Assembly (NCBI GenBank): GCA_030323885.1
Contig: CM059186.1
Span: 27,885,005-27,949,004, forward strand
Direction of reading: 5' to 3'
Length of the DNA: 64,000 nt
Source: Branchipolynoe longqiensis
Lineage: Eukaryota; Annelida; Polychaeta; Phyllodocida; Polynoidae
Made by a program: the position numbers and the translations under genes. Below, in pieces: positions 14,615 to 63,861 of the stretch; position 1 is the first letter of the stretch; each line of letters begins with the position of its first letter. The notes below the pieces were generated by a model. That model had not been told where the DNA came from, did not search any database, and was given only the letters and a program-made list of their open reading frames with translations.

Positions 14615-16266
14615 ATGCATGGTGTTGACGGGGTCGACTACATCCAACTTAAAGCTGCATAGTCTTGCACCTGGTCCTTTCATAATGCCTGGTGTTGACA
14701 GGGCCGACTACATCCAACTTAAAGCTGCATAGTCTTGCACCTGGTCCTTTCATAATGCCTGGTGTTGACAGGGCCGACTACATCCAACTTAAAGCTGCAT
14801 AGTCTTGCGCCTGGTCCTTTCATGCCGTGTTTGTATGGCGATACATCCAACTTAAAGCTGCATAGTCTTGCACCTGGTCCTTTCATAATGCCTGGGTGTT
14901 GACAGGGCCGACTACATCCAACTTAAAGCAGCATAGTCTTGCACCTCGGTCCTTTCATAATGCTGGTGTTAAAGGGGTCAGACTACATCCAACTTAGCAG
15001 CATAGTCTTGCACCTGGTCCTTTCATAATGCCTGGTGTGACAGGCCGACTACATCCAACTTAAAGCTGCATAGTCTTGCACTGGTCCTTTCATAATGCCT
15101 GGTGTTGACAGGGCCGACTACATCCAACTTAAAGCTGCATAGTCTTGCACCTGGTCCTTTCATAATGCCTGGTGTTGACAGGGCCGACTACATCCAACTT
15201 AAAGCAGCATAGTCTTGCACCTGGTCCTTTCATAATGCCTGGTGTTAACGGGGTCAACTACATCCAACTTAAAGCTGCATAGTCTTGCACCTGGTCCTTT
15301 CATAATGCCTGGTGTTGACAGGGCCGACTACATCCAACTTAAAGCAGCATAGTCTTGCACCTGGTCCTTTCATAATGCCTGGTGTTGACAGGGCCGACTA
15401 CATCCAACTTAAAGCTGCATAGTCTTGCACCTGGTCCTTTCATAATGCCTGGTGTTGACGGCGGCCGACTACATCCAACTTAAAGCTGCATAGTCTTGCA
15501 CCTCGTCCTTTCATAATGCCTGGTATTGATGGTGGGCGACTACATCCAAATTAAAGCAGCATAGTCTTGCACCTGGTCCTTTCATAATGCCTGGTGTTAA
15601 CGGGGTCAACTACCTCCAAATTAAAGCTGCATAGTCTTGCACCTGGTCCTTTCATAATGCCTGATATGGACGGTGGCCGACTACATCCAAATTAAAGCAG
15701 CATAGTCTTGCACCTGGTCCTTTCATAATGCCTGGTGTTAACGGGGTCAACTACATCCAACTTAAAGCTGCATAGTCTTGCACCTGGTCCTTTCATAATG
15801 CCTGGTGTTGACAGGGCCGACTACATCCAACTTAAAGCTGCATAGTCTTGCACCTGGTCCTTTCATAATGCCTGGTGTTGACAGGGCCGACTACATCCAA
15901 CTTAAAGCTGCATAGTCTTGCACCTGGTCCTTTCATAATGCCTGGTGTTGACAGGGCCACTACATCCAACTTAAAGCTGCATAGTCTTGCACCTGGTCCT
16001 TTCATAATGCTGGTGTTGACAGGGCCGACTACATCCAACTTAAAGCTGCATAGTCTTGCACCTGGTCCTTTCATAATGCCTGGTGTTGACAAGGGCCGAC
16101 TACATCCAACTTAAAGCTGCATAGTCTTGCACCTGGTCCTTTCATAATGCCTGGTGTTGACAGGGCCGACTACATCCAACTTAAAGCTGCATAGTCTTGC
16201 ACCTGGTCCTTTCATAATGCCTGGTGTTGACAGGGCCGACTACATCCAACTTAAAGCAGCATAGTC
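14615..16266. repeat. 70-bp satellite array
   Basis: About 23-24 head-to-tail copies of a 70-bp unit containing TACATCCAACTTAAAGCTGC, ATAGTCTTGCACCTGG and CATAATGCCTGGTGTTGACA. Most copies differ by a few bases. A variant with AAAGCAGCATAG is often followed by GTTAACGGGGTCAAC, suggesting a partial higher-order pattern. The array begins at the N gap, so its left extent is unknown. Scattered single-base indels could be biological or assembly noise. Confidence 0.95.
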
Positions 16267-18173: not shown

Positions 18174-18516
18174 TTAAAGTTGCATAGTCCAATGGTTTTG
18201 AGCTTGTGTCATTTTCTGAGATAAAAATATTAGTTTGATCATTATAATCTATCTTTCTTTAGTTTGAAGTCACTTTTATTTTAAATGGCTAACTTTTGAG
18301 ATATTTGAAGTGCAAATATGTGAAATTAATGCCAAAACTCTGGCCCCATATGCGTTAGCAGTAAAAGGTTCTATTAAATTGACTCAGTGTTCCCTTCTAT
18401 GTAGCGACAAATGCTTAATAAGTGCATCAGTATCTAAATCAGATATGTAGAATCAAATTTAGATAATTGCTTCGCTTTTGAAAATTTACTGTTTTCATAC
18501 GGACTATGCAAATTTA
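18174..18516. mobile_element. R element (TTAA-ended AT-rich MITE)
   Basis: Begins TTAAAGTTGCATAGTCC and ends with its approximate complement (CGGACTATGCAAATTTAA). The interior shares long blocks with other R copies: GAGATAAAAATATTAG, AAATGGCTAACTTTTGAGAT and CCAAAACTCTG. No transposase is encoded. Confidence 0.8.
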
Positions 18517-18662
18517 ACTTAAGTTGATTGCTACAATTTACTGTTGAAGTTTAAAGTAATTTTTTTTCATTTCGAATTGTTAAATGTTTTGGGAGATATT
18601 TGAAGTCAAAACAAGCCAAATTAATTTGGGCTTTGTTTTAAGCGCTTTTGAGAATAGCAGTG
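18517..18662. mobile_element. R-element-related fragment
   Basis: Diverged R-type sequence (GGGAGATATTTGAAGTCAAA, AAGCCAAATTAATTTGG) without intact ends. Confidence 0.45.
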
Positions 18663-24630: not shown

Positions 24631-25085
24631 GTGTATATATATACTGTTCCTTTCTCTATCTTAGCAATGCAGTGCGCCATGCTTTTAAGATTGATTGATT
24701 GAGTGATTGGTGGTTGCTTTATGCCGTTTCGGCAGCATAGGCCATATTCACGGTGAGAAATTAGTTTTTTGTTCAAACCATCGCTTTTACATGTAAAAGC
24801 AGACAATCAATTATGTGCCAATAGACATTCATTAAATTAGAAAGCTCACAATCATATATTTGTGGTCAAGGATTTTAAAGTAATTTCTTTGATTCGGCAA
24901 CATTTCAAACCCAGAGGTTGATAGCAGCAAATTGCTGCTTAAGCAGTCCACTAGTTTAGATACTCATCCAAGAATGCCAGAAATGTGGGTTTGAGACTGG
25001 CTCTAGATAGGCATAGTATCCCATACGTTTGCAGTATTCTGCACAACATGAGGTTCGGAATAGCATGGCCCACTTCAAATATTAG
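24631..25085. other. No recognisable gene
   Basis: Contains GATTGATTGAGTGATTGG and GCTTTATGCCGTTTCGGCAG, which look like part of some other repeat. No copy in the window supports a call. Confidence 0.4.
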
Positions 25086-25091
25086 ATGCTA

Positions 25092-25265
25092 CATTAGAGC
25101 TGCATATTCCGATGAAGTAGAGGTCAGCCCAGTTGGGGTCTGACCGGTGGTGACCCGTGCCGCCACCTAGCGCATCAAATTTTCAAAACAAAAGCAATTA
25201 TTCAGACTTGATTATGGGTATCTGACATAGATATTGGTGCATTTATCAAACATTTGACACCACAT
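25092..25265. mobile_element. R-element left part with 59-bp foreign block
   Basis: R terminus AGAGCTGCATATTCCGATGA is followed at 25116 by a block absent from other R copies. R sequence resumes at about 25172 (GCATCAAATTTTCAAAAC). The foreign block is identical over 59 bp to 26136-26194, inside the 335-bp LTR-like sequence 1020 bp downstream. Confidence 0.7.
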
Positions 25266-25618
25266 AGAAGATAATGCTGAGGCAATTTAAAGTTGCATAA
25301 TCAGATGCTTTTGAGTTTTTGCTATTTTGTGAGATAAATATATTATACTAATGTTATAATCTACTTTACTTTAGTTTGAAGTAACTTTGATTTTAAATGG
25401 CTAAGTTTTGAGATATTTGATGTCAAAACATGCCAAAATAATTTTGGCAATCACACCAAAACTCTGACACCATAGATTTCAATAGCGACGGTTTCTATTG
25501 ATTGACGTATTATGCCCTTCTATGCAGCAACAAATGATTAATAAGTGCACCAGTGTCTAAGTTGAATATGTAGAATCAAATCTAGATAAGTGTTTTGGTT
25601 TTGAAAACTTTATTTTTT

Positions 25619-26273
25619 TGTTGTGGGGGTGATGAAAATGGGAAATACTGCGCCTAGAGCGGGACTCGAACCCACATCTCTTTGCATTCCGGGCCAGTGT
25701 GCTAACCATTACACCACCTAGGCTCCCTGATATCAATACACTCCCCACGCCTACCTGTCTATGTGGTTACTTGCCTGAGAGGTCAGTGCAGACCACTACA
25801 CTCGTCCCCCTGGAATTGTAAGTCTTGTAATGCTTACAATTACATACATACAGGCAATGCACTAACACATACATACACAGGGTAGGTTCAACAACCATAC
25901 AGCGCAAAGCTTGTACAGGATCCTGGTCACGGCACCAATGTAATGGCCCACGGCCCTCCGACTCTCACTCTTTCACACGGAAGAACACCAAGATTCAATT
26001 CAGTGTACGCTTCACCTTGGGTTTATTGAACCATCTGCTCTCCGCGGCGTCAGTAGTTGTCTGACCCGCCCCCTGACTCGCCAGATCCCACATCGACTCT
26101 ATAGGTGTGTGTGGGGGGGTGGGTCAACCACACGCAGTAGAGGTCAGCCCAGTTGGGGTCTGACCGGTGGTGACCCGTGCCGCCACCTAGCGCAGTGTAG
26201 TGGTACTGCGCTGGTGGCGTCGTAGTCTCCGCTGCTACCGCGTGATAGTAGAGCTCATGTTCAGACTACTACA
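25619..26273 (-). mobile_element. Mosaic LTR miniature, unequal terminal segments
   Basis: On the minus strand the order is: a 335-bp TG...CA segment (26273-25939) with an AATAAA signal (plus-strand GGGTTTATTGAACC near 26019); a primer-binding-site-like TGGTGCCGTGACCAGGAT (about 25937-25920); a short spacer; a purine tract (CCAGGGGGACGAG); and a 182-bp TG...CA segment (25800-25619) with a tRNA-like sequence. The spacer and the 182-bp segment are homologous to the complete miniature at 30564-31066. TTTT flanks both sides but lies in a T run. The two terminal segments resemble each other only over the first 23 or so bases, which is abnormal for an LTR element. Confidence 0.7.
25651..25723 (-). 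other. tRNA-like sequence in LTR (pol III promoter)
   Basis: Third copy of the 73-nt tRNA-like segment described at 30641-30713, with the same A box and the B box GGTTCGAGTCC. Confidence 0.75.
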
Positions 26274-26298
26274 TTTTCATCGGACTATACAACTTTAA

Positions 26299-26510
26299 CA
26301 GAACCTGTTACTACAGAAGCCTATGGTGTCAGAGTTTTGGCGCGCTTGCCAACATTAATTTTGCATATTTCCACTTCAAATATCTCAGAAGCTAGCCATT
26401 TAAAATATAAGTTACTTCAACCTAAAGTGAGGTCAATTATACAAAACAATTTAGTATGTTTATCTCAGAAAATTACAGAAACTCAAAACCATCGGACTAT
26501 ACAATTCACT
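26299..26510. mobile_element. R-element right part
   Basis: R-type sequence from AGAACCTGTTACTACAGAAG to ACCATCGGACTATACAATTC, abutting the previous R copy. Confidence 0.7.
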
Positions 26511-29353: not shown

Positions 29354-29408
29354 TGGGGCTCCAGCCCCAGAATGTCAAGAAGTGTGGGTTTGAATACTGC
29401 TGTGTGTG

Positions 29409-30471: not shown

Positions 30472-30640
30472 TGCATACATATGCACACACATACACATAT
30501 ATATATACACATCGGTCGATTTAGAGAGGTTTTACTATACATACATATGCACACACATACACATGTAGTGGTCTGCACTGACCTCTCAGGCAAGGAGCCG
30601 CATAGACAGGTAGGCATGGGTAGTGTGTTGATATCAGGGA

Positions 30641-30713
30641 GCCTAGGTGGTGTAATGGTTAGCACACTGGCCCGGAATGCAAAGAGATGTGGGTTCGAGT
30701 CCCGCTCTAGGCA
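30641..30713 (+). other. tRNA-like sequence in LTR1 (pol III promoter)
   Basis: A 73-nt segment with a 7-bp acceptor stem (GCCTAGG with TCTAGGC, one G-T pair), a 4-bp D stem (GTGT/ACAC) and a 5-bp T stem (GTGGG/CCCGC). The A box is TGGTGTAATGG and the B box GGTTCGAGTCC. The anticodon arm cannot fold properly and is about 2 nt short, so it is not a working tRNA. The D-arm word GGTGTAATGGTTAGCAC resembles animal tRNA-Gln, as a tentative origin. Confidence 0.8.
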
Positions 30714-30961
30714 CAGTATTTCCCATTTTCATCACCCCCCATGACACTGGTTGCCGTGACCATGATCCTGTACAAGCTATGCGCTGTATAGTTGTTGAAC
30801 CTACCCTGTGTATGTAAGTGCGTTGCATTGCCTGTATGTATGTAATTGTAAGTATTAAAAGACTTACAATTCCAGGGGGACGAGTGTAGTGGTCTGCACT
30901 GACCTCTCAGGCAAGGAGCCGCATAGACAGGTAGGCATGGGTAGTGTGTTGATATCAGGGA

Positions 30962-31034
30962 GCCTAGGTGGTGTAATGGTTAGCACACTGGCCCGGAATG
31001 CAAAGAGATGTGGGTTCGAGTCCCGCTCTAGGCA
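30962..31034 (+). other. tRNA-like sequence in LTR2 (pol III promoter)
   Basis: Identical to 30641-30713 by eye. Confidence 0.8.
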
Positions 31035-31181
31035 CAGTATTTCCCATTTTCATCACCCCCATGACACACATATATATACACATCGGTCGATTTAGAGAGG
31101 TTTTACTGTACATAGATATGCACACACATACACACATATATATACACATCGATCAAATTAGAGAGGTTTTAGTGTATATAT

Positions 31182-31794: not shown

Positions 31795-32640
31795 GTCTAA
31801 TGAAGGCCATGCTTCACTGCAGGATACATGCGTCTGTTCTAATGGAGGCCGAACCCCATGACAGGACACATGCGTGTGTTCTAATGGAGGACATACCTCA
31901 TGACAGAACACATGCGTGTGTTCTAATGGAGGACATACCTCATGACAGAACACATGCGTGTGTTCTAATGGAGGACATACCTCATAACAGAACACATGTG
32001 TGTGTTCTAATGGAGGCCATACCCCATGATAAGACACATGTGTGTGTTCTATCGGAGGTCATACCCCATGACAAGATATATCTGGGTGTTTTCTAATGGA
32101 GGCTATACCTCATGACAGGACATATGCATTTGTTCTAATGGAGGCCATAACCCATAATAAGACACATGTGTGTGTTCTAATGGAGGCCATACCCATTGAC
32201 AGGACACATGCATGTGTTCTAATGGAGGCCATGCCCCATGACAAGACATATGTGTGTGTTCTAATGGAGGCCAAACCCCATGATAAGACACATGTGTGTG
32301 TTCTAATAGAGGCCGAACCCCATGACAAGACACATGCATGTGTTCATATGGAGGCCATACTACATGAGAAGATACATGCATGTGTTCTAATGGAGGCCAA
32401 ACCCCATGAGAAGACACATGTGTGTGTTCTAATGGAGGCCGAACCCGATGACAAGACACATGCATGTGTTCATATGGAGGCCATACGGCATGATAAGACA
32501 CATGCGTGTGTTCTAATGGAGGCCAAACCCCATGAGAAGACACATGTGTGTGTTCTAATGGAGGCCAAAACCCATGACAGGACACATGCGTGTGTTCATG
32601 CCCTGCAGCTGGACACATATGATGTGTCCTAACGGTACGT
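31795..32640. repeat. 42-bp minisatellite, open on both strands
   Basis: About 19 head-to-tail units of 42 bp containing TTCTAATGGAGGCCATACC, CCATGACAAGACACATG and TGTGTG. Because 42 is a multiple of three, the array keeps a 14-codon repeat peptide open on the plus strand (31800-32096, 32096-32632) and another on the minus strand. No start context, signal peptide or known domain is visible, so it is annotated as a repeat. Confidence 0.9.
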
Positions 32641-36739: not shown

Positions 36740-37849
36740 TTAGTTGGCGAGAAGACGCTTTGCAACGCCGGTAGGCTTTTCTAGTCGTTTATTATAATGT
36801 TTTGCAAACGACTTAGCCGTCTTCCAGCCTGCATGCGCTAGTATTCTTTTCACAGAAATACCAAGCACCCGTGCCTTGGAGACCATGGCTCCTCTAGTTG
36901 AGTGGGAAGAGTATTTACTCGTATCCACTCCAGCCAATTTCAACACCGTAATTGTCCATCTGGCAAGTGTGTCTCGTGAAATCGCCTTATGTGGCTTTAT
37001 AAAGCTCACTAATAGTTGTTGTGATGCACGTAAATCCTTTGTCTTGTATATATAAGCCCGTATGGCCGACACAACACATAATTTCCGATCATTCGGAAAA
37101 CAGTCTAAGTGAACCGTTGATAAAGGGTCACCTAACGTGTTCGATTTAAGCAATTTTTCTAAATCAAACGTAGCTTGTTGCTTGTCTATTTCTAATCCAG
37201 TTAAGGATAAAGCAACAATCGTCTGTCCTCTGTGTCCGGTTACTAACAATAACAGGACCGCGACCTTAAAACCTAACTGTTTTATATCTAACCACGAGTT
37301 GTGAGGCCAAGCCTGAAACAACTTAAATACTATAGAAACATCCCAAAACCGACTATACTTTGGTTTTGGAGGATTCCTTTGATAAATTGAACGAAGTAAA
37401 TAACAAATAACATGATGTTTTCCAACTGTTTCGCCATCAATTCTAGGTAATATAATTGATAACGCACACCTCGCCGCATTAATCGATCCAAAGGAAAGTC
37501 CTTCATCCTCTAGAGAACGAAGAAACCGAGCTACTTGTGAAATCTTTGGATTTGTTGGCTTAACTTTCATTAACAAACAATGTACACCCCATTTCTTTAA
37601 ATAGGTTGTATACATTTTGACAGTTCCTGGCCTCCAGGCATCCGATACTATCCTATCCTCAGTAATTCTGTCTAATCCAAATTGCTGTAGCTGCTTCCTT
37701 AGAAAAGGAATGCCAATAGGGGCGTCGTTGATACGTCGCCGTGAACCACTAGCGGTCCGTGGTGCGTCAGATTCCCGAGTTTTCTTGGGAATCGTATACG
37801 ATCTTTTGCCAGTTGTGAAACTGCTGGCAGCCAAGGTTGCGTGTCCCAA
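36740..37849 (-). CDS. Tyrosine recombinase (DIRS YR)
   Basis: An open frame of 369 codons encoding a phage-integrase-family recombinase that would insert a circular DNA copy of the element in the nucleus. The catalytic set is complete: Arg207 (GHRGQT), His316 and Arg319 (HSTR), His339 (HAGW) and Tyr352 (KHYNK). An N-terminal SAM-like DNA-binding region precedes it (about 70-200). The frame overlaps the upstream polymerase frame by about 150 nt in the -1 frame and starts at a TTG. The first ATG is about residue 79, so it probably depends on the upstream frame for translation. Overlap of RT and YR frames is typical of DIRS elements. Confidence 0.9.
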   Translation of the reverse strand: MGHATLAASSFTTGKRSYTIPKKTRESDAPRTASGSRRRINDAPIGIPFLRKQLQQFGLDRITEDRIVSDAWRPGTVKMYTTYLKKWGVHCLLMKVKPTNPKISQVARFLRSLEDEGLSFGSINAARCALSIILPRIDGETVGKHHVICYLLRSIYQRNPPKPKYSRFWDVSIVFKLFQAWPHNSWLDIKQLGFKVAVLLLLVTGHRGQTIVALSLTGLEIDKQQATFDLEKLLKSNTLGDPLSTVHLDCFPNDRKLCVVSAIRAYIYKTKDLRASQQLLVSFIKPHKAISRDTLARWTITVLKLAGVDTSKYSSHSTRGAMVSKARVLGISVKRILAHAGWKTAKSFAKHYNKRLEKPTGVAKRLLAN

Positions 37850-39549
37850 TCGGGCACCACCAGTATCGCATGTGTCCCTTCCAAGCCGATTTTTCTCACT
37901 ACTCGGCTGATAATGCTAAATGGTGGGAAAATATAAAAATAATTATTTTCCCAGGTAATAGCAAACGCATCTACTTTCCAAGCATCCGGTTCAGGATGCC
38001 AAGAAACATAACAGGGTAACTTGTTATTATTTCGTGATGCAAATAAGTCAACTTCAGGTGTACCCCATTTTTCACAAACGAAGTTAAACAAATGTGTAGA
38101 GAGAGACCACTCTAAATGGTCATGGAAATTTCTACTTTTATAATCTGCAAGTGTATTTTGTGACCCTGGAATATGCGCTACAGTCAGCCAGACTTGTTGA
38201 GCCTGTGCCCAGTTCCAAATCAGTTTAGATAACTGATTGCAAGACTTTGATTTGGTTCCACCCATGTTACGAATATATGCCATGGCAGTAGTATTATCAG
38301 TTAGTATTCTAACCTGTGATTTATTTATCTTTACTAAACTACGTAAGCCCAGATAAATAGCACGCAACTCTAGTGCATTAATATAGTCTGATTTTTCATC
38401 ATCAAGCCATCTACCTCCTGTTGTGACCCCATCTCGATGAGCTCCCCAACCTTCTAACGAAGCATCAGTAGTAATTACTGTATTAGGTTCCGCCATGCGG
38501 ATTGGATTTGGTGAACTTGCTATATGTCGCATCCACCATCCAATATCCTGTAACCCTTCTTGCGAAATAAACATCTTTCGCTCAAAATTGCCTTTAGTTC
38601 GTGTTAACGCTAAATTTTTATCTATTTCTAGCGACTTAATATGGGCCTTCCCATATAACACAGCAGGTGCATATGAGGTCATTATGCCAATAAGAACAGC
38701 AACCTGTCTAATTTTTGGCTTTGATAACTTAATAAGCTGAGTCGCTGTAGTCATAAACTTAATTAGTTTTTGTTCTGTTATCGACACTGTAAGGGACTGT
38801 GTATCCAGAATAAACCCTAAACATTTGAGTTGTTTTGCTGGTTTAAACACTGACTTTTGTTGATGTACATAAAACCCCAATTTAGTGAGTAATGCACATA
38901 AATCCAAAACTGCATTCACACAACCAATTTGTGTTGATGCTATAATAAAAGAATCATCTATGTATGGAAACATTATATGACCCTTCCTCGCCATTACCGA
39001 GAAAACAGGTTTAAGCAATTTAGTAAATAAACGTGGCGCACAAGCTAAGCCATTCGGCATACAGGTAAACTCATAGAGTTGGTTATCCCAAATAAATCGA
39101 AGAAATTTTCGGTATTGTTCCATTATGGGAAGCGTATAATATGCATCCTGTAAATCAACACTAGCCATCCACGCATCTGGTGTAATCAGATCCCGTGCCG
39201 TATCTAGAGAGAACATTTTAAAATGTCGATATTCCACCCTTTTATTAAGGATTGTTAAATCCAGGATCATTCGAACATCACCATTAGGCTTCGGTCTCGA
39301 GAAAATGTTTGAAATAAACTGTCCTGAACAGTGTGTCACTTTTTGTATAATTCCTTTCTCAAAGAATTTATGTACCTGTTTAGTTAGTGCGTCTCGTACA
39401 ACTGGTTGAATGTTATATGGAAAAGGTATTATACTTTGTACAGGAATTTGTGTAAAGGGAATTTGAACACCCCTAACTATTTCTATAATTTCTTGGTCAC
39501 TAGTAATTTTGTGCCACTCAGAAATATGATTACTAATATTACCAGCCAC
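37699..39549 (-). CDS. Reverse transcriptase, RNase H and Dam-like methyltransferase (DIRS pol)
   Basis: 616 codons from a GTG, but the frame is open upstream to about 39864, overlapping the gag-like frame by some 250 nt in the -1 frame. Reverse transcriptase: motif A VDLQDAYY (Asp132), motif B CMPNGLACAP (163-172) and motif C YIDD (196-199). RNase H: TTDAS (Asp362), Glu394 (ALELRA), Asp418 (TDNTTA) and Asp469. Residues 495-580 (GTPEVDLFASRNN, then FPPFS at 541-545 and VVPDWDTQPW) match the Dam-type adenine methyltransferase-like domain of DIRS elements. All catalytic residues are present, so activity is plausible. Confidence 0.92.
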   Translation of the reverse strand: MAGNISNHISEWHKITSDQEIIEIVRGVQIPFTQIPVQSIIPFPYNIQPVVRDALTKQVHKFFEKGIIQKVTHCSGQFISNIFSRPKPNGDVRMILDLTILNKRVEYRHFKMFSLDTARDLITPDAWMASVDLQDAYYTLPIMEQYRKFLRFIWDNQLYEFTCMPNGLACAPRLFTKLLKPVFSVMARKGHIMFPYIDDSFIIASTQIGCVNAVLDLCALLTKLGFYVHQQKSVFKPAKQLKCLGFILDTQSLTVSITEQKLIKFMTTATQLIKLSKPKIRQVAVLIGIMTSYAPAVLYGKAHIKSLEIDKNLALTRTKGNFERKMFISQEGLQDIGWWMRHIASSPNPIRMAEPNTVITTDASLEGWGAHRDGVTTGGRWLDDEKSDYINALELRAIYLGLRSLVKINKSQVRILTDNTTAMAYIRNMGGTKSKSCNQLSKLIWNWAQAQQVWLTVAHIPGSQNTLADYKSRNFHDHLEWSLSTHLFNFVCEKWGTPEVDLFASRNNNKLPCYVSWHPEPDAWKVDAFAITWENNYFYIFPPFSIISRVVRKIGLEGTHAILVVPDWDTQPWLPAVSQLAKDRIRFPRKLGNLTHHGPLVVHGDVSTTPLLAFLF

Positions 39550-39614
39550 AAAGTTGCTTACAGTTTGTGTGTTTTTAGAGGCTGCAGGGACTTGTAAAGT
39601 TTGTGTTTGGACCT

Positions 39615-40973
39615 CTACTTGGACCCGCCCCTGGGGAAAGGTCTCGACGAGTTGAACCCTCGACCTATTGGCCGTGCGGTGTTGTCGGTCCAGCCTGGGC
39701 GAGCGCCCCGGCCCCGAAACCCTTGACCAAAGTTTGAACTCGGTCTGGTTCCTCTGGTGAACCGTCGTGGACGAAAATCCCCTCGTGACTTTTTGAAACG
39801 AGGAACTTCCTGTTTCTTCTTGCCATCCATGTTTTTGCCACTCTTGGCTGCAGTCTCTACCTCTTTATAGAGGTATTGTAGTTGACCGCCAAACATCTTG
39901 GTATTATCTAAAGGTTTCCCTTTAATCGGCTCTGGAGCAAGATAGAGCGTAAACTCCTTCCCCTCATTATCGGTAACCTTCTTAGAGCGAGCCACTTCTT
40001 TGCCAGCATCTGTGCAAACTGACTTGAAGACATTTTCATATCTTCGAAACGACAGGTAATTACCTGCCGCCGCTAGTACTGCAATGCCTTTGTCCATTGT
40101 CTTAGCCAAAGACGAGAACTTATTTTCACTCTGCATCCTATTAGCCACAGGAACAATAGCTGTTAGGGTAGCCAACACTGCCTTATGCACTGTGTGCAAC
40201 ACATCCTCAAACTTCTTACGGTCATCCGTCATATTGACATCCCGATCCATTTCTTTAATGATGGAGTTGGGAACACCCTTTATGCCTGTTAACTCATCTC
40301 CTAACTTGGAGATAACCTCCGCCGGTTTGAACGTGCGAAAATGACCATTCACGGTCTCGCGCATAAGCGTAGTGGTTTTAACCCGCTTAGCCTTTGGCTT
40401 CTCCACCTTCTTAGCCACTTTAGTGCCAATGTCCGCATAGACCCCTTCATATACGGTGTCTGAGTCTGATTCCGTAGAAGTAGACTCAGTGGATGACTCA
40501 GAAGAAGAATATTTCCTCTTCCTCTTCTTCTTTTTGGACTTAGTCTTCCGCTTTTTGCGCAAACCAGACTCTGCCCGCTCCTTGGTGAATTCATCACCCG
40601 AAGAAATCACCTGTTTCTTCTTCTTCCTCCGTTTAGGAGAAGGAGGAGGAGGAGCCTTAAGCTCCACCGCCGAGTCTGTGTCCAAGAAATCCTCAAATGA
40701 ATCCTCTTGGACACTCGGCCTACGCCGCTTCCGAGACACAGGCGATTTGGCAGTCAAGATGTGGCTTTCCAATCTTGCAAAGCGAGCCTCCCAATCTGGA
40801 GGCGCAGGCACATCAGGCACTGCGTCCTCGTCCGGGTCGGAGAGGATATGCGCCCGGGGCTGTGTCGACGGCCCTGCCGACAACACGGGTGAGGAGTCGT
40901 ACTCCTCGTCCACTCCACTCGGAACCCGCCCCTCGGCTGCTGCTGCACCGCGCTTACTCCGCTTCGTGGCCAT
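39615..40973 (-). CDS. DIRS gag-like protein
   Basis: Position, composition and the downstream pol frame identify this as ORF1, a putative RNA-binding structural protein. I chose the ATG at 40971-40973 (MATKRSKRG), giving 452 residues. An in-frame ATG at 41024 would add 17 residues. The N-terminal third is acidic and disordered with Lys/Arg clusters (KRRKKKKQ, KKKKRKRK) that could be nuclear signals, then a Ser/Glu-rich segment. The middle is more ordered. The C terminus is rich in Arg and Gly (RGRGARPG, RPFPRGGSK), typical of RNA binding. No zinc knuckle is visible. The stop at 39615-39617 lies inside the open pol frame. Confidence 0.8.
   Translation of the reverse strand: MATKRSKRGAAAAEGRVPSGVDEEYDSSPVLSAGPSTQPRAHILSDPDEDAVPDVPAPPDWEARFARLESHILTAKSPVSRKRRRPSVQEDSFEDFLDTDSAVELKAPPPPSPKRRKKKKQVISSGDEFTKERAESGLRKKRKTKSKKKKRKRKYSSSESSTESTSTESDSDTVYEGVYADIGTKVAKKVEKPKAKRVKTTTLMRETVNGHFRTFKPAEVISKLGDELTGIKGVPNSIIKEMDRDVNMTDDRKKFEDVLHTVHKAVLATLTAIVPVANRMQSENKFSSLAKTMDKGIAVLAAAGNYLSFRRYENVFKSVCTDAGKEVARSKKVTDNEGKEFTLYLAPEPIKGKPLDNTKMFGGQLQYLYKEVETAAKSGKNMDGKKKQEVPRFKKSRGDFRPRRFTRGTRPSSNFGQGFRGRGARPGWTDNTARPIGRGFNSSRPFPRGGSK
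39633..39639 (-). promoter_or_regulatory. Candidate -1 frameshift heptamer at gag/pol overlap
   Basis: Read in the gag frame the sequence is T TTC CCC, which fits X XXY YYZ, five codons before the gag stop and followed by G-rich sequence. Pol lies in the -1 frame. Heptamers with YYY = CCC are usually weak, so this is a suggestion only. Confidence 0.25.
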
Positions 40974-41683
40974 CGGGAACTGAAACAAACATTTTTGATC
41001 AGTCCCGGTATATATATATGTCACAATATGGTTGTTTCAAACTCATTTGGACATCTATTGGTGTTAAAGAACGTGTTTATACCGTTATAACACAGGCGTA
41101 ATAAGCTAAATTTGTGCGTGGGTTGTGGGTCAAGCCCAAACCTTACGCGGGGTCGGGACCAGTGTATCGGCCCGCCCATCCCTCTGTTCCGCACACTTCT
41201 CCCACCTGTGACTACTACGTCAACAAGTTGGAGAAAATGCTACGAAACTTGGAGAAACGCCTGAAAAAGTTTTGTCTAGGGGAGTCTATAAAAGAAACCC
41301 AGGAGCATCTCCAACATTACTCTCTATTAGAGTACGAGAGAATTTCCACATGAGATAGGGCGAAACCCACATCTCTACCCATAGTCACACGGTGACCCGG
41401 GTGTTGACATAACCGCTAATGACCGGTTTGGTTCCTTCGCGAAACCCACTCGAGTGTTCTATCCTTGGTTGTTTATAACCAAATAACTCGTCCAAATTGG
41501 ACCAACGAAAGTCTAAACTTTCCATATTGATGCTCTAATGCATCATAATTAAGCTAACCACAGTTTTTATTATACTTACTGCGTATTTGCTTGTATGTAG
41601 ACTAATTTTGCCGGAGCAACCCAACGACACGTTATCCAGTCGTGAGTTGTATATGCTAATTGCTGGTACCGGACGTGCTTACC
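40974..41683 (-). promoter_or_regulatory. DIRS 5' leader region
   Basis: About 700 bp between the 5' inverted repeat and the gag-like start, expected to hold promoter and untranslated leader. Its 5' subterminal part (41659-41683) is shared with the 316-bp derivative. The plus strand carries a 79-codon ATG frame (41114-41353) with a Lys/Leu/Glu-rich helical stretch and no known match. Confidence 0.5.
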
Positions 41684-47262: not shown

Positions 47263-47668
47263 TTAAAGCGGCATAGTCCGATGAAGCATCAAATTTTCAA
47301 AACCAAAGCAATTATTTATAACTAATTCTACATATCTAACTTAGATAACACTCTTATCTGGTATGAATAGGGTAAATAAATTCATTACACAACAAAAGAT
47401 ACTGCGGCACTTATTAAGCATTTGTTGCCAAATAGAAGGGAATACTGAGACAGTTTAATAGGAGCTGTTACTGCTGAAGACTATGGTGTCAGAGTTTTGG
47501 CAAGCTTGCCAAAATTAATTTACACGTCTGCACTTCAAATATCTCAAAACTTAGTCATATAAAATAGAAGTTACTTCAAGCTAAAGTAAGGTAGATTGTA
47601 ACAATCAATTTAATGTATTTATCCAGAAAAATGAAAGAAACTGGAAACTATCGGACTATGCAGCTTAA
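47263..47668. mobile_element. R element, complete copy
   Basis: Best complete R copy: it starts TTAAAGCGGCATAGTCCGAT, ends ATCGGACTATGCAGCTTAA and has TTAA at both edges. Interior blocks recur in all R copies: CATCAAATTTTCAAAACC, CTGAAGACTATGGTGTCAGA, CAAATATCTCAAAACTTAG and AAGTAAGGTAGATTGTAAC. No protein is encoded. TTAA edges could mean a TTAA-targeting (piggyBac-type) origin, but the ends lack the usual CCC start, so the superfamily is open. Confidence 0.85.
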
Positions 47669-47728
47669 AAGCTGCATAGTCCGATGAAAGCATCAGGTTT
47701 TCGAAACCAAAGTACTTACATAAATTTG
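47665..47728. mobile_element. R-element left end
   Basis: A second R element starts at the TTAA ending the previous copy (AAAGCTGCATAGTCCGATG) and breaks at the following SINE-A. Confidence 0.75.
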
Positions 47729-54619: not shown

Positions 54620-55410
54620 TTCCCGGAATCGGCTTCCCCCGTAATGGATCTCCCCCGTAATGGGCTTCCCCGGTAATGGGCATCCCCGTAATGAGTCTCC
54701 CCCATAATGGGCATCCCCGCAATGAGTCTCGCCCATAATGGGCTTCCCCCATAATGAGTCTCCCCCATAATGGGCTTCCCCCATAATAAGTATCCCCCAT
54801 AATGGGCTTCCCCCGTAATGGATCTCTCCCGTAATGAGGTTCCCTCGTAATGGGCTTCCCCCGTAATGGGTATCCCCCGTAATGAGTCTCCCCCATAATG
54901 GGCTTCCCCTGTAATGGGTTTCCCCGGAATGCGCTTACCCCGTAATGGGTCTCCGCCGTAATCGGATGTTGCCAGTAATGTCTCCGCCGTAATGGGATTC
55001 GCCCGTAATGGGTCTCCCCCGTAATGGGCTTCCCCCGTAATGGGTCTCCGACGTAATGTGATTCCCCGTAATGGGTCTCCCCCGTAATGGGCTTCCCCCG
55101 TAATGGGTCTCCGCCGTAATGGGATTCCCCTGTAAAGCGATTCCCCCGTAATGGGCTTCCCCCGTAATGGGTCTCCGCCGTAATGGGATTCCCCTGTAAA
55201 GCGATTCCCCCGTAATGGGCTTCCCCCGTAATGGGTCTCCGCCGTAATGGGATTCCCCTGTAAAGCGATTCCCCCGTAATGGGCTTCCCCCGTAATGGGC
55301 TTCTGACGTAATGGGATTCCCCCATAATGGGCTTCCCCCCTAATGGGTCTCCGATGTAATGTGATTCCCCCGTAATGGGCTTCCCATGTAATCAGCTTTC
55401 CCCGTCATGG
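54620..55410. repeat. Minisatellite, CCCCGTAATGGGCTTC units, with 64-bp higher-order unit
   Basis: About 45 units of 15-18 bp built on CCCCCGTAATGGG with endings CTTC, TCTCC, ATTC or TATC. Between about 55089 and 55285 a 64-bp block, marked by CCCCTGTAAAGCGATTC, recurs three times without visible change. The Gly/Pro/Tyr/His-rich minus-strand frame of 254 codons is a repeat artefact. Confidence 0.9.
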
Positions 55411-57496: not shown

Positions 57497-57772
57497 AAAG
57501 GGGTCTTTGGAAGGGGTAATAATTTCAATTGGGAGGTGTGAAAAAGCATAAAGGGGTCTTTGAAAGGTGTAATAATTTCAATTGGGAGGTGTGAAAAAGC
57601 ATAAAGGGGTCTTTGAAAGGTGTAATAATTTCAATTGGGAGGTGTGAAAAAGCATAAAGGGGTCTTTGAAAGGTGTAATAATTTCAATTGGGAGGTGTGA
57701 AAAAGCATAAAGGGGTCTTTGAAAGGTGTAATAATTTCAATTGGGAGGTGTGAAAAAGCATAAAGGGGTCTT
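57497..57772. repeat. 53-bp near-perfect tandem repeat, 5 copies
   Basis: Units beginning GGGGTCTTTGAAAGGTGTAA start near 57498, 57551, 57604, 57657 and 57710 (53-bp period), with a partial sixth. Copies 2-5 appear identical by eye; the first differs by a few bases. Confidence 0.95.
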
Positions 57773-58299: not shown

Positions 58300-59700
58300 A
58301 GGTCTCTGGTGGTTTGGACACCGGAGTCAGCAGTTTGAATCTGAGCGATATTAGAGACATCATACACTAGTTTGAATCTTGGCGATATTAGAGGCATCGC
58401 ACAGTAAGCAGATTGAATCTGGGCAATATTAGAGACATTGTACAGTCAGCTGTTTGAATCAGGGCAATATTAGCGACATTGTACAGTCAGCAGTTTGAAT
58501 CTGGGCAATATTAGAGACATTGTACAGTCAGCTGTTTGAATCAGGGCAATATTAGAGACATTGTACAGTCAGCAGTTTGAATCTGGGCAATATTAGAGAC
58601 ATTTTACAGTCAGCTGTTTGAATCAGGGCAATATTAGAGACATTGTACAGTCAGCAGTTTAAATCTGGGCAATATTAGAGACATTGTACAGTCAGCAGTT
58701 TGAATCTGGGCAATATTAGAGACATTGTACAGTCAGCAGTTTGAATCTGGGCAATATTAGAGACATTGTACAATCAGCAGTTTGAATCTGGGCAATATTA
58801 GAGACATTGTACAGTCAGCTGTTTGAATCAGGGAAATATTAGAGACATTGTACAGTCAGCAGTTTAAATCTGGGCAATATTAGAGACATTGTACAGTCAG
58901 CAGTTTGAATCTGGGCAATATTAGAGACATTGTACAGTCAGCAGTTTGAATCTGGGCAATATTAGAGACATTGTACAGTCAGCAGTTTGAATCTGGGCGA
59001 TATTAGAGACAATGTACAGTCAGCAGTTTGAATCCTAGAGATATTAGGGACATCTTACAGTCAGCGGTTTGAATCTGGTTAATATTAGAGACATTGTACA
59101 GTCAGCAGTTTGAATCTGGGCGATATTAGAGACATCATACGGTCAGCAATTTGAATCTGGGCGATATTAGGGACATCATACAGTCAGCAATTTGAATCTG
59201 GATGATATTAGAGACATCTTACAGTCAGCAATTTGAATCTGGACGATATTAGAGACATCATGCAGTCAGCAGTTTGAATCTGGGTGATATTAGAGACATC
59301 GTACAGTCAGCAGTTGGAATCTGGGCGACATTAGAGACATCGTACAGTCAGCAGTCTGAATCTGGGTGACATTAAAGACATCGTACAGTCAGCAGTTTGA
59401 ATCTTAGCGATATTAGGGACATCTTACAGTCATCGGTTTGAATCTGGTTAATATTAGAGACATCGTTCAGTCAGCAGTTTGATTCTGGGCGATATTAAAG
59501 ACATCGTACAGTCAGCAGTTTGAATCCTGGCAATATTAGGGACATCTTACAGTCAGCGGATTGAATCTGGTTAATATTAGAGACATCGTTCAGTAAGCAA
59601 CTTGATTCTGGGCGATATTAAAGGCATTATGCAACAGAAACTTTCAACCTGGGCGATATTAGAGGCATCATGCAGCAGGCAGATTTAATCTGAACATTAG
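58300..59700. repeat. 41-bp minisatellite, about 34 copies
   Basis: Unit of 41 bp containing ACAGTCAGCAGTTTGAATC then TGGGCAATATTAGAGACATT. In 58430-58870 units with CAGCTGTTTGAATCAGGG alternate irregularly with CAGCAGTTTGAATCTGGG, a two-unit (82-bp) pattern. Units become more diverged towards both ends, with CATC replacing CATT on the right. Confidence 0.95.
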
Positions 59701-62565: not shown

Positions 62566-63018
62566 GGAGCATAATCCAATGGAGGCACAACATTATTGGA
62601 ACCAAAACACTCACCCAAATTTGATTCTATATATCTTAACCTAGATACTAGTGTATTTATTAAGCATTTATTATTGTACAGAAGGAATGCTAAGTTAGTT
62701 TAGAGTTTCATGGTCCGGTGGTTTTGAGTTTCTGCCATCTTCTGGTATAAATATATTAGGTTGATCTTTATTACCTACCTTACTTTAGTTTGAAGTAACT
62801 TTTATTTTAAATGGCTAACCTTGGAGATATTTGAAGTGCAAATATAGAAAGTTAATTTTGACAAGCATGCCAAAACTCTGACACCACAGGCTTCTGCAGT
62901 AACAGATTCTATTAAATTGACTCAGTATCCCCTTAGACTATGTGGCAATAAGTACATCAATATCTAAGTTCGATGTGCAGAATCAAATCTAGATTATTAT
63001 TTTGGTTTAATAAACGTA
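62566..63018. mobile_element. R-element sequence, near-complete
   Basis: Starts GGAGCATAATCCAATGGAGG with CCAAATTTGATTCTATATATC and TAGATACTAGTGTATTTATT. A second R-type end (GAGTTTCATGGTCCGGTGG) lies near 62703, so two partial R copies may be fused here. Confidence 0.6.
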
Positions 63019-63294: not shown

Positions 63295-63548
63295 TTTTAT
63301 TTTCTTATGAAAATTTGATGCTTTCATCGAATTATGCAGCTTTAATATATATAACCTGTCCTTAATTCGAACGTGAAGAACAACATTAACTTAGCATGTT
63401 TTCAATTCAAAGAGCTCCAAAATTAACCCTTTAAAATAAATAAATACTTTAACCTAGAAGTAAAGTAGATTCTAATTCTCACCCTAATATATTAATCTAA
63501 AAAGATATGTGGCAGGAACTTCCAAATCATGTGACTGTGCAACATTAA
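63295..63548. mobile_element. R-element fragment
   Basis: TATGAAAATTTGATGCTTTC, then CATCGAATTATGCAGCTTTA, then R-right-half sequence ending GTGACTGTGCAACATTAA. Confidence 0.6.
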
Positions 63549-63808
63549 AGCTGCATAGTCCGATGAAAAGATCAAATTTTCATAACCAAAACACTGACCT
63601 CGATTTGATTCTACATATCTAACTTAAATACTGATGTACTTATTAACCATGTGTGGTCACATAGACGGGAAGAGGAGGTCAATATAATAGGACCTATTAC
63701 TGCAGAAACCTATTGTGTCTGAGATTTGGCATGCTTGCCAAAATTAATAAGACATGTTTGCACTTCAAATATCTCAAAAGTTAGCCATTTTAAATAAATG
63801 TTAGTTCA
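63545..63808. mobile_element. R element interrupted by E8
   Basis: TTAAAGCTGCATAGTCCGAT onward, normal R blocks to GTTAGTTCAAACTAA, where E-type sequence begins. Confidence 0.75.
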
Positions 63809-63861
63809 AACTAATACCCCTGTCACACTACGACGCAACGAGCAAACGTAAGCCTGACGTT
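63809..63861. mobile_element. E8, left end of an E-type MITE
   Basis: TACCCCTGTCACACTACGAC, AACGTAAGCCTGACG as in E2, preceded by TAA. It then breaks into a T-rich stretch; the right end is not in the window. Confidence 0.7.

Follow-up and report, generated by a model that had tools for sequence, protein, structure and literature searches.

A Helenus-type TRIM with tRNA-derived LTR sequence and hybrid copies that carry the LTR of a likely helper family

Described TRIMs and the element of the window

Helenus (TRIMp3), described by Kojima in 2024, comprises TRIMs with tRNA-derived sequence in their LTRs and is found in fungi, animals and a lycophyte (PMC10886601). Its members are short and non-coding, with two direct LTRs that both contain A- and B-box tRNA-derived sequence, a PBS and a PPT; in the animal families, insertion produces 4-bp duplications, and some of these families use a tRNA-His primer (PMC10886601). 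The zebrafish family LTR-11_DR reaches thousands of copies and forms tandem arrays (PMC10886601). The tRNA of Helenus is mostly non-functional, with disagreement over the isotype in many families, and its transcription by pol III was deduced from motifs in that study as well (PMC10886601). A Gypsy-type LTR retrotransposon was proposed as the mobiliser of the animal families; in one fungal case, the helper was deduced from internal likeness too (PMC10886601). The view taken there of what mobilises pol III TRIMs, and of whether their RNA enters its particles, rests mainly on the likeness of PBSs (PMC10886601).

Cassandra, a plant TRIM, has a pol III-type promoter inside its LTRs (PMC10886601) and forms tandem arrays (PMC7215508), and both features recur in the element described below. 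However, the LTRs of Cassandra hold 5S rRNA sequence and its RNA has an 18-bp terminal repeat (PMC10886601), whereas here the sequence is of tRNA type and the predicted R spans about 90 nt. The biv-TRIMs of bivalves are animal TRIMs that likewise build tandem arrays, of the form TDRx_I(x-1), but they have repeats of 202-218 bp, an inner domain of 77-80 bp, a PPT that is mostly GGGGAGA and no unambiguous PBS; a tRNA-derived promoter goes unmentioned in the cited parts of that paper, in which no partner was found (PMC6934838).

With regard to LTRs of mixed parentage, intermolecular second-strand transfer has been argued for HIV-1, where the step is described as generally intramolecular (PMC5651808), and recombinant LTRs were found in extrachromosomal DNA of Onsen (PMC5668417). 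In both cases, as we propose here, two co-packaged RNAs give DNA with LTRs of different parents; those parents, however, are relatives with homologous LTRs, whereas our two families have LTRs alike mainly at their ends and are joined at 65 genomic junctions (PMC5651808, PMC5668417). A wheat study raised the speculation that gene conversion or template switching could carry LTRs from one sub-population to another (PMC9744471). Chimeras or different LTRs are not mentioned in the main text of Kojima 2024 (PMC10886601), and among the matches listed, no open-licence paper reported, by its title or the start of its abstract, TRIM hybrids with a family of unrelated LTRs. The tRNA-bearing class of TRIMs has thus been known since 2024, while hybrid copies with the presumed helper are the new part.

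The window, by which we mean the whole 64,000-nt stretch of Branchipolynoe longqiensis DNA analysed here, contains a 503-bp element composed of an LTR, a spacer and an LTR at 30564-31066 (+ strand). The 5' LTR (30564..30746, 183 bp) and the 3' LTR (30885..31066, 182 bp), both of the type that we designate T, differ by a single C (99.5% identity) and have the termini TGTAGT...ATGACA. The target duplication, CACA, lies at 30560..30563 and 31067..31070 and is seen in the flanks ...CATACACA / CACATATA...; joining these flanks minus four bases restores the 64-66-bp units of a tandem array of the 66-bp type. The spacer (30747..30884, 138 bp) starts with C-TGGTTGCCGTGACC, which includes a PBS-like sequence of the tRNA-His type with one extra T (30748..30761), recognised from the sequence and from the counts of junctions and tRNA parts given below, and it ends with the PPT-like AGGGGGACGAG (30874..30884). 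The 3' end that we assume for human tRNA-His predicts the PBS TGGTGCCGTGAC; relative to the tRNA-His complement, the T-type PBS has the extra T and one or two further bases off.

Both LTRs contain a tRNA-like segment (30641..30713 and 30962..31034), each scoring 48.4 bits against RF00005 (gathering threshold 29), for which ARAGORN called tRNA-Ser(GGA). In the 5' LTR, the A-box-like TGGTGTAATGG occupies 30648..30658 and the B-box-like GGTTCGAGTCC 30692..30702; these calls draw on conservation among copies and on box consensus sequences that we take to be the standard ones. At minimum energy, the segment folds into a shape other than a cloverleaf, with a stability no greater than expected (z -1.21), so that the "broken anticodon arm" of the first-pass annotation was a fair description. 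Just two T4 runs occur in the element, at 30726..30729 and 31047..31050, each 13 nt past a tRNA-like segment, the former being a possible pol III stop. A signal-listing script found no AATAAA-type polyadenylation signal in the T LTRs and a single motif match in the spacer, at 30854.

The first-pass annotation had also described the LTR pair with its one-C difference, TG...CA ends and CACA duplication, the PBS-like and purine-tract sequences (which recur at the spacer ends across family copies), the empty site offered by the 66-bp array, and a tRNA-like segment with A and B boxes in each LTR; coordinates and comparisons agree with it on all these points. Its proposal of a novel animal analogue of Cassandra did not hold, for the class had already been published as Helenus in 2024 (PMC10886601), and its reading as a whole is partly supported. 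The T4 runs and a hybrid copy 4.3 kb away were absent from it.

On the structural features tested, the element fits Helenus, and we file it there as these features are present: the short non-coding body with two direct LTRs, the boxes, PBS and PPT, the tRNA-His-type primer site, the 4-bp duplications (CACA here, perfect in 17 of 22 loci), the thousands of copies and the tandem arrays (PMC10886601). Cassandra and Ajax were rejected, since Rfam models, applied to the window with their gathering thresholds, returned only tRNA and no 5S. The biv-TRIMs were rejected on spacer and PPT, given the 138-bp inner region ending with the purine tract shown above (PMC6934838).

Genome-wide copies and possible transcription of the TRIM

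A 31-nt pattern spanning the junction of PPT and T LTR matched 21,156 genomic places with up to three mismatches, while the reversed control matched none; therefore, the family is not a product of chance. In all 30 fetched loci, T-LTR matches flank the spacer on both sides, with truncated LTRs in two. Eight of these loci overlapped neighbours and were merged, leaving 22 distinct ones, among them L029 and L041, whose LTR-pair identities of 0.53 and 0.59 are boundary failures. The 22 loci were the first exact matches among the matches listed, all within the first 5.7 Mb of one contig, and the sample is thus biased to young copies. Perfect 4-bp duplications flank 17 of the 22 loci, against 17 of 462 swapped pairs, and duplications of at least three of four bases flank 19 loci against 88 of the 462, a contrast somewhat flattered because right ends were picked among ACA ends for the best duplication in real loci and not re-optimised in the swapped control. 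Tandem arrays, in which the T LTR and spacer are repeated, were present at seven of the 22 loci (one with six LTRs), and six of the seven have perfect duplications. The median LTR identity in this sample was 0.967 within a copy and 0.952 between copies; with the former barely above the latter, the T family is young and uniform in the sample. The genome check suggested in the first-pass annotation yielded paired LTRs (30/30), 4-bp duplications (perfect in 17 of 22), PBS and PPT, which supports its reading of the element as a TRIM whose LTRs each hold a tRNA-type promoter segment. The signs that it had named as contrary, A-rich tails with long duplications or a tRNA-like segment missing from most LTRs, did not turn up in the examined copies.

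The 264 kb surrounding the window hold four elements of the T-spacer-T form and one hybrid, along with two copies that are partial and two T LTRs of solo type. Judged by eye, the three T-spacer-T elements other than that at 30564-31066 show GTAC/GTAC (at 175286), a match at three of four bases (102911) and no duplication (86425), while one solo T LTR is flanked by CATG/CATG and one solo LTR of family A, introduced below, by GTGA/GTGA. Weak matches to the T-LTR model, which represent old copies or related tRNA-derived repeats, were also observed at 24959-25022 and 29361-29401 in the window and at 93708, 189519, 190749 and 250151 in the neighbouring DNA (coordinates of the window plus L001-L020).

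In an alignment of 67 near-full-length LTRs out of 71 matches, identity to the majority base was 98.4% for the A box, 97.7% for the B box, 95.5% for U3 and 93.5% for the tail; the boxes, whose conservation had been put forward for checking in the initial annotation, are thus kept, just slightly above the rest of the LTR in a sample skewed to young copies. Older copies also retain both boxes. A run of at least four T follows the B box in 60 of the 67 LTRs, and a run of three in the other seven.

From these motifs, we infer that the TRIM may be transcribed by pol III. Initiation would take place a short distance upstream of the tRNA-like segment of the 5' LTR; the polymerase would pass the weak T4 of that LTR and terminate at the T4 of the 3' LTR, yielding an RNA whose terminal repeats are long (R of about 90 nt). 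What counts against such a route is that the T4 of the 5' LTR should end many transcripts early and that 7 of 67 LTRs have no more than T3. The T LTR could instead be driven by pol II, with the tRNA-like part as a passenger left by a SINE insertion. The same obstacle to read-through and the box conservation barely above background would suit this alternative, but the lack of any AATAAA-type signal in the T LTRs by the signal-listing script, the retention of A and B boxes in older copies and the T4 after the B box in most aligned LTRs speak against it, so that we consider it unlikely.

Hybrid copies and their possible origin

A third tRNA-like match in the window, at 25651-25723, led us to a second copy of the element, located at 25619-26273 on the minus strand and bounded by two unlike LTRs. 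Its 3' LTR (25619..25800) is of T type and includes this tRNA-like segment (RF00005), and its spacer (25801..25938) is of T type with an A-type PBS start. The 5' LTR (25939..26273, 335 bp), in contrast, belongs to a different family, which we designate A, and carries AATAAA. The alignment of the A and T LTRs is mainly confined to their ends, with little common sequence elsewhere. The copy is flanked by TTTT on the low side (25615..25618, inside a longer T run) and on the high side (26274..26277), and when the flanks are joined with one TTTT removed, seven alignments to further copies of a resident repeat of the window span the joint, the shortest of them covering 46 bases. The 4-bp duplication, albeit in a T run, and the empty site indicate that the hybrid is one insertion with two unlike LTRs. 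The resident dispersed repeat that served as the target is partly inverted and lies at 25287-25619, 26294-26504 and 18174-18535, with further copies at 47397-47670, 62600-63008 and 63545-63814. Some 0.4 kb beyond the hybrid copy, 59 bp (25116-25174) are identical to positions 80-138 of LTR A.

Genome-wide, the junction of the A LTR with the PBS was matched at 694 places (up to two mismatches). Ten such loci, drawn from at least 100 exact places, were followed over 800 bp. Three of them (L051, L052 and L056) are hybrids; five continue into related ORF-like sequence, and the remaining two run into DNA of other kinds. The A-to-T hybrid junction was found at 65 places, 24 of them exact (identical over 41 nt), and the junction leading from the A LTR through the PBS to ORF-like sequence at 112; reversed controls gave 0 in both cases. 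Four of the 65 hybrids were read, namely the window copy and the three just named, and in all four the TRIM spacer leads on to the T LTR that belongs to the TRIM. All four start with an A-type PBS and become T-type from about nucleotide 18, which places the switch within the PBS; this location is partly built into the patterns, since both include the A-type PBS and let A-LTR hybrids with a TRIM-type PBS escape, the window hybrid being the one found free of them. Duplications were checked in three hybrids and were perfect over 4 bp in each (TTTT in the window, GATA/GATA in L052, ATAC/ATAC in L051), which dates the hybrid state of these copies to integration. Compared with the window hybrid, the spacer is identical over 138 bp in L056, 90.6% identical in L051 and 93.5% in L052; given the identical pair, the hybrids need not all be independent.

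Among 39 junctions of the T LTR with the spacer, the A-type start T-TGGTGCCGTGACC was never present; a C follows the LTR in 38, and the longer TGGTTGCC-type spacing occurs in 37. Reciprocal junctions, from the T LTR through the PBS to ORF-like sequence, had three pattern matches in the genome, and the PPT-side junction of T spacer and A LTR had none genome-wide at up to three mismatches. On this latter count, a TRIM with the same spacer between two A LTRs was rejected.

The tRNA-His-type 3' part complementary to the 18-nt A-type PBS has 38 exact places in the genome. Among the matches listed, six of them overlap junctions of the A LTR and PBS (G000:C1:185410629, C4:1188503, C4:34007813, C14:40941281, C14:71297019 and C14:77414231). 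At these six, the tRNA-His complement continues past the 18-nt PBS and beyond tRNA position 58, which would suit either an insertion of A strong-stop DNA that included primer read-through or the existence of a subfamily with a long PBS. Judging by their first 40 bases, L055 and L060 pass from the A LTR end and about 13 nt of PBS directly into other DNA, which in the case of L060 looks like the window's dispersed repeat; these two loci are possibly inserted strong-stop DNA or truncations.

The plus-strand strong-stop DNA of LTR elements comprises the LTR together with 18 nt copied from the tRNA primer, and it normally anneals to the minus strand to which it belongs, at the PBS end. We propose that the pol III RNA of the Helenus-kind, non-coding TRIM is packaged in particles of the longer A-LTR family, which would likewise be primed by tRNA-His, and that A plus-strand strong-stop DNA at times pairs instead with TRIM minus-strand DNA at its PBS end, a scenario that we hold at a probability of roughly 0.8. 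The product would run from an A LTR through the PBS and spacer to a T LTR, with the switch in the PBS and both integrase ends intact, and would insert with the usual duplications; the mirror event would give a T LTR, PBS, coding region and A LTR, and no switch would be expected at the PPT. The location of the switch, the duplications, the reciprocal junctions and the absence of PPT-side junctions all fit such a transfer. With somewhat less assurance, we also favour the view that the 65 hybrids, along with the three reciprocal junctions, are fossils left by mixed particles, where pol III TRIM RNA and pol II helper RNA would have been reverse-transcribed together and strong-stop DNA swapped at the shared tRNA-His site.

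Rather than arising by many separate transfers, hybrids with an A LTR, TRIM spacer and T LTR could make up a family that itself replicates and goes back to a single founder or a few. The 24 exact junctions and the identical spacers of the window hybrid and L056 are what such a family would show, but the spacers of L051 and L052 differ from that of the window hybrid, and the three reciprocal junctions do not suit it. Besides, the first strand transfer of LTR elements requires a repeated R, which two unlike LTRs would not supply. We therefore find such a family distinctly improbable as the source of the hybrids.

Even more doubtful, in our opinion, is an origin of the hybrids within the chromosomes, with A and TRIM copies that were already inserted recombining or undergoing gene conversion. 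Both kinds of elements do have the PBS and LTR ends in common, and the tandem arrays show exchange at the DNA level among TRIM copies. However, a crossover between two insertions would join unrelated flanks, whereas the 4-bp duplications are perfect in each of the three hybrids tested and sister repeats show the empty site of the window hybrid, which disfavours a DNA-level origin; conversion, in turn, needs homology on two sides, and the A and T LTRs are alike little beyond their ends. Finally, a tandemly duplicated tRNA SINE, which would account for the tRNA-like head and the arrays, deserves next to no credence, being refuted by the LTR-spacer-LTR anatomy, fixed 4-bp duplications, PBS and PPT of the fetched loci and their lack of an A-rich tail.

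Family A as a likely helper and other features of the window

The five ORF-like continuations of A-LTR loci consist of pieces that are 77-96% identical to one another, with open stretches of 158-213 codons; that of L057 extends over at least 180 codons. Pfam recognised no gag or pol domain in four of these pieces, the one sub-threshold match having an E value of 0.12, and no Gypsy domain was identified in the four pieces scanned. The hybrids, the common LTR ends, the common primer and the continuation of five of ten loci into ORF-like sequence lead us to regard family A as the likely helper of the TRIM, in line with the proposed intermolecular second-strand transfer in shared particles. While the animal helpers of Helenus were deduced from PBS likeness (PMC10886601), here the TRIM is tied to family A by hybrid copies. 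A 24-mer of the tRNA-like segment had no matches in viral contigs.

An LTR of the helper on one side and the TRIM's own LTR on the other would amount to physical evidence of co-packaging, available at many loci, and the hybrids could serve as a count-based readout of intermolecular second-strand transfer. If our scenario is true, identity of the two LTRs within an insertion is not a rule, even where target duplications are present, and whole LTRs can be swapped between unrelated families via an 18-nt PBS. It is tempting to suppose that a TRIM might in this way gain or lose a pol III promoter or change its helper.

Apart from the elements discussed above, the window carries a reverse transcriptase ORF (PF00078) at 36740-41036 on the minus strand; some of its relatives have RNase H, MT-A70 or phage-integrase domains, and the element is, we presume, of the DIRS or Ngaro type. 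Large tandem arrays were also observed at 14615-16266 (70-bp units), 31796-32597 (42-bp), 54635-55392 (64-bp), 57497-57772 (53-bp) and 58325-59668 (41-bp).
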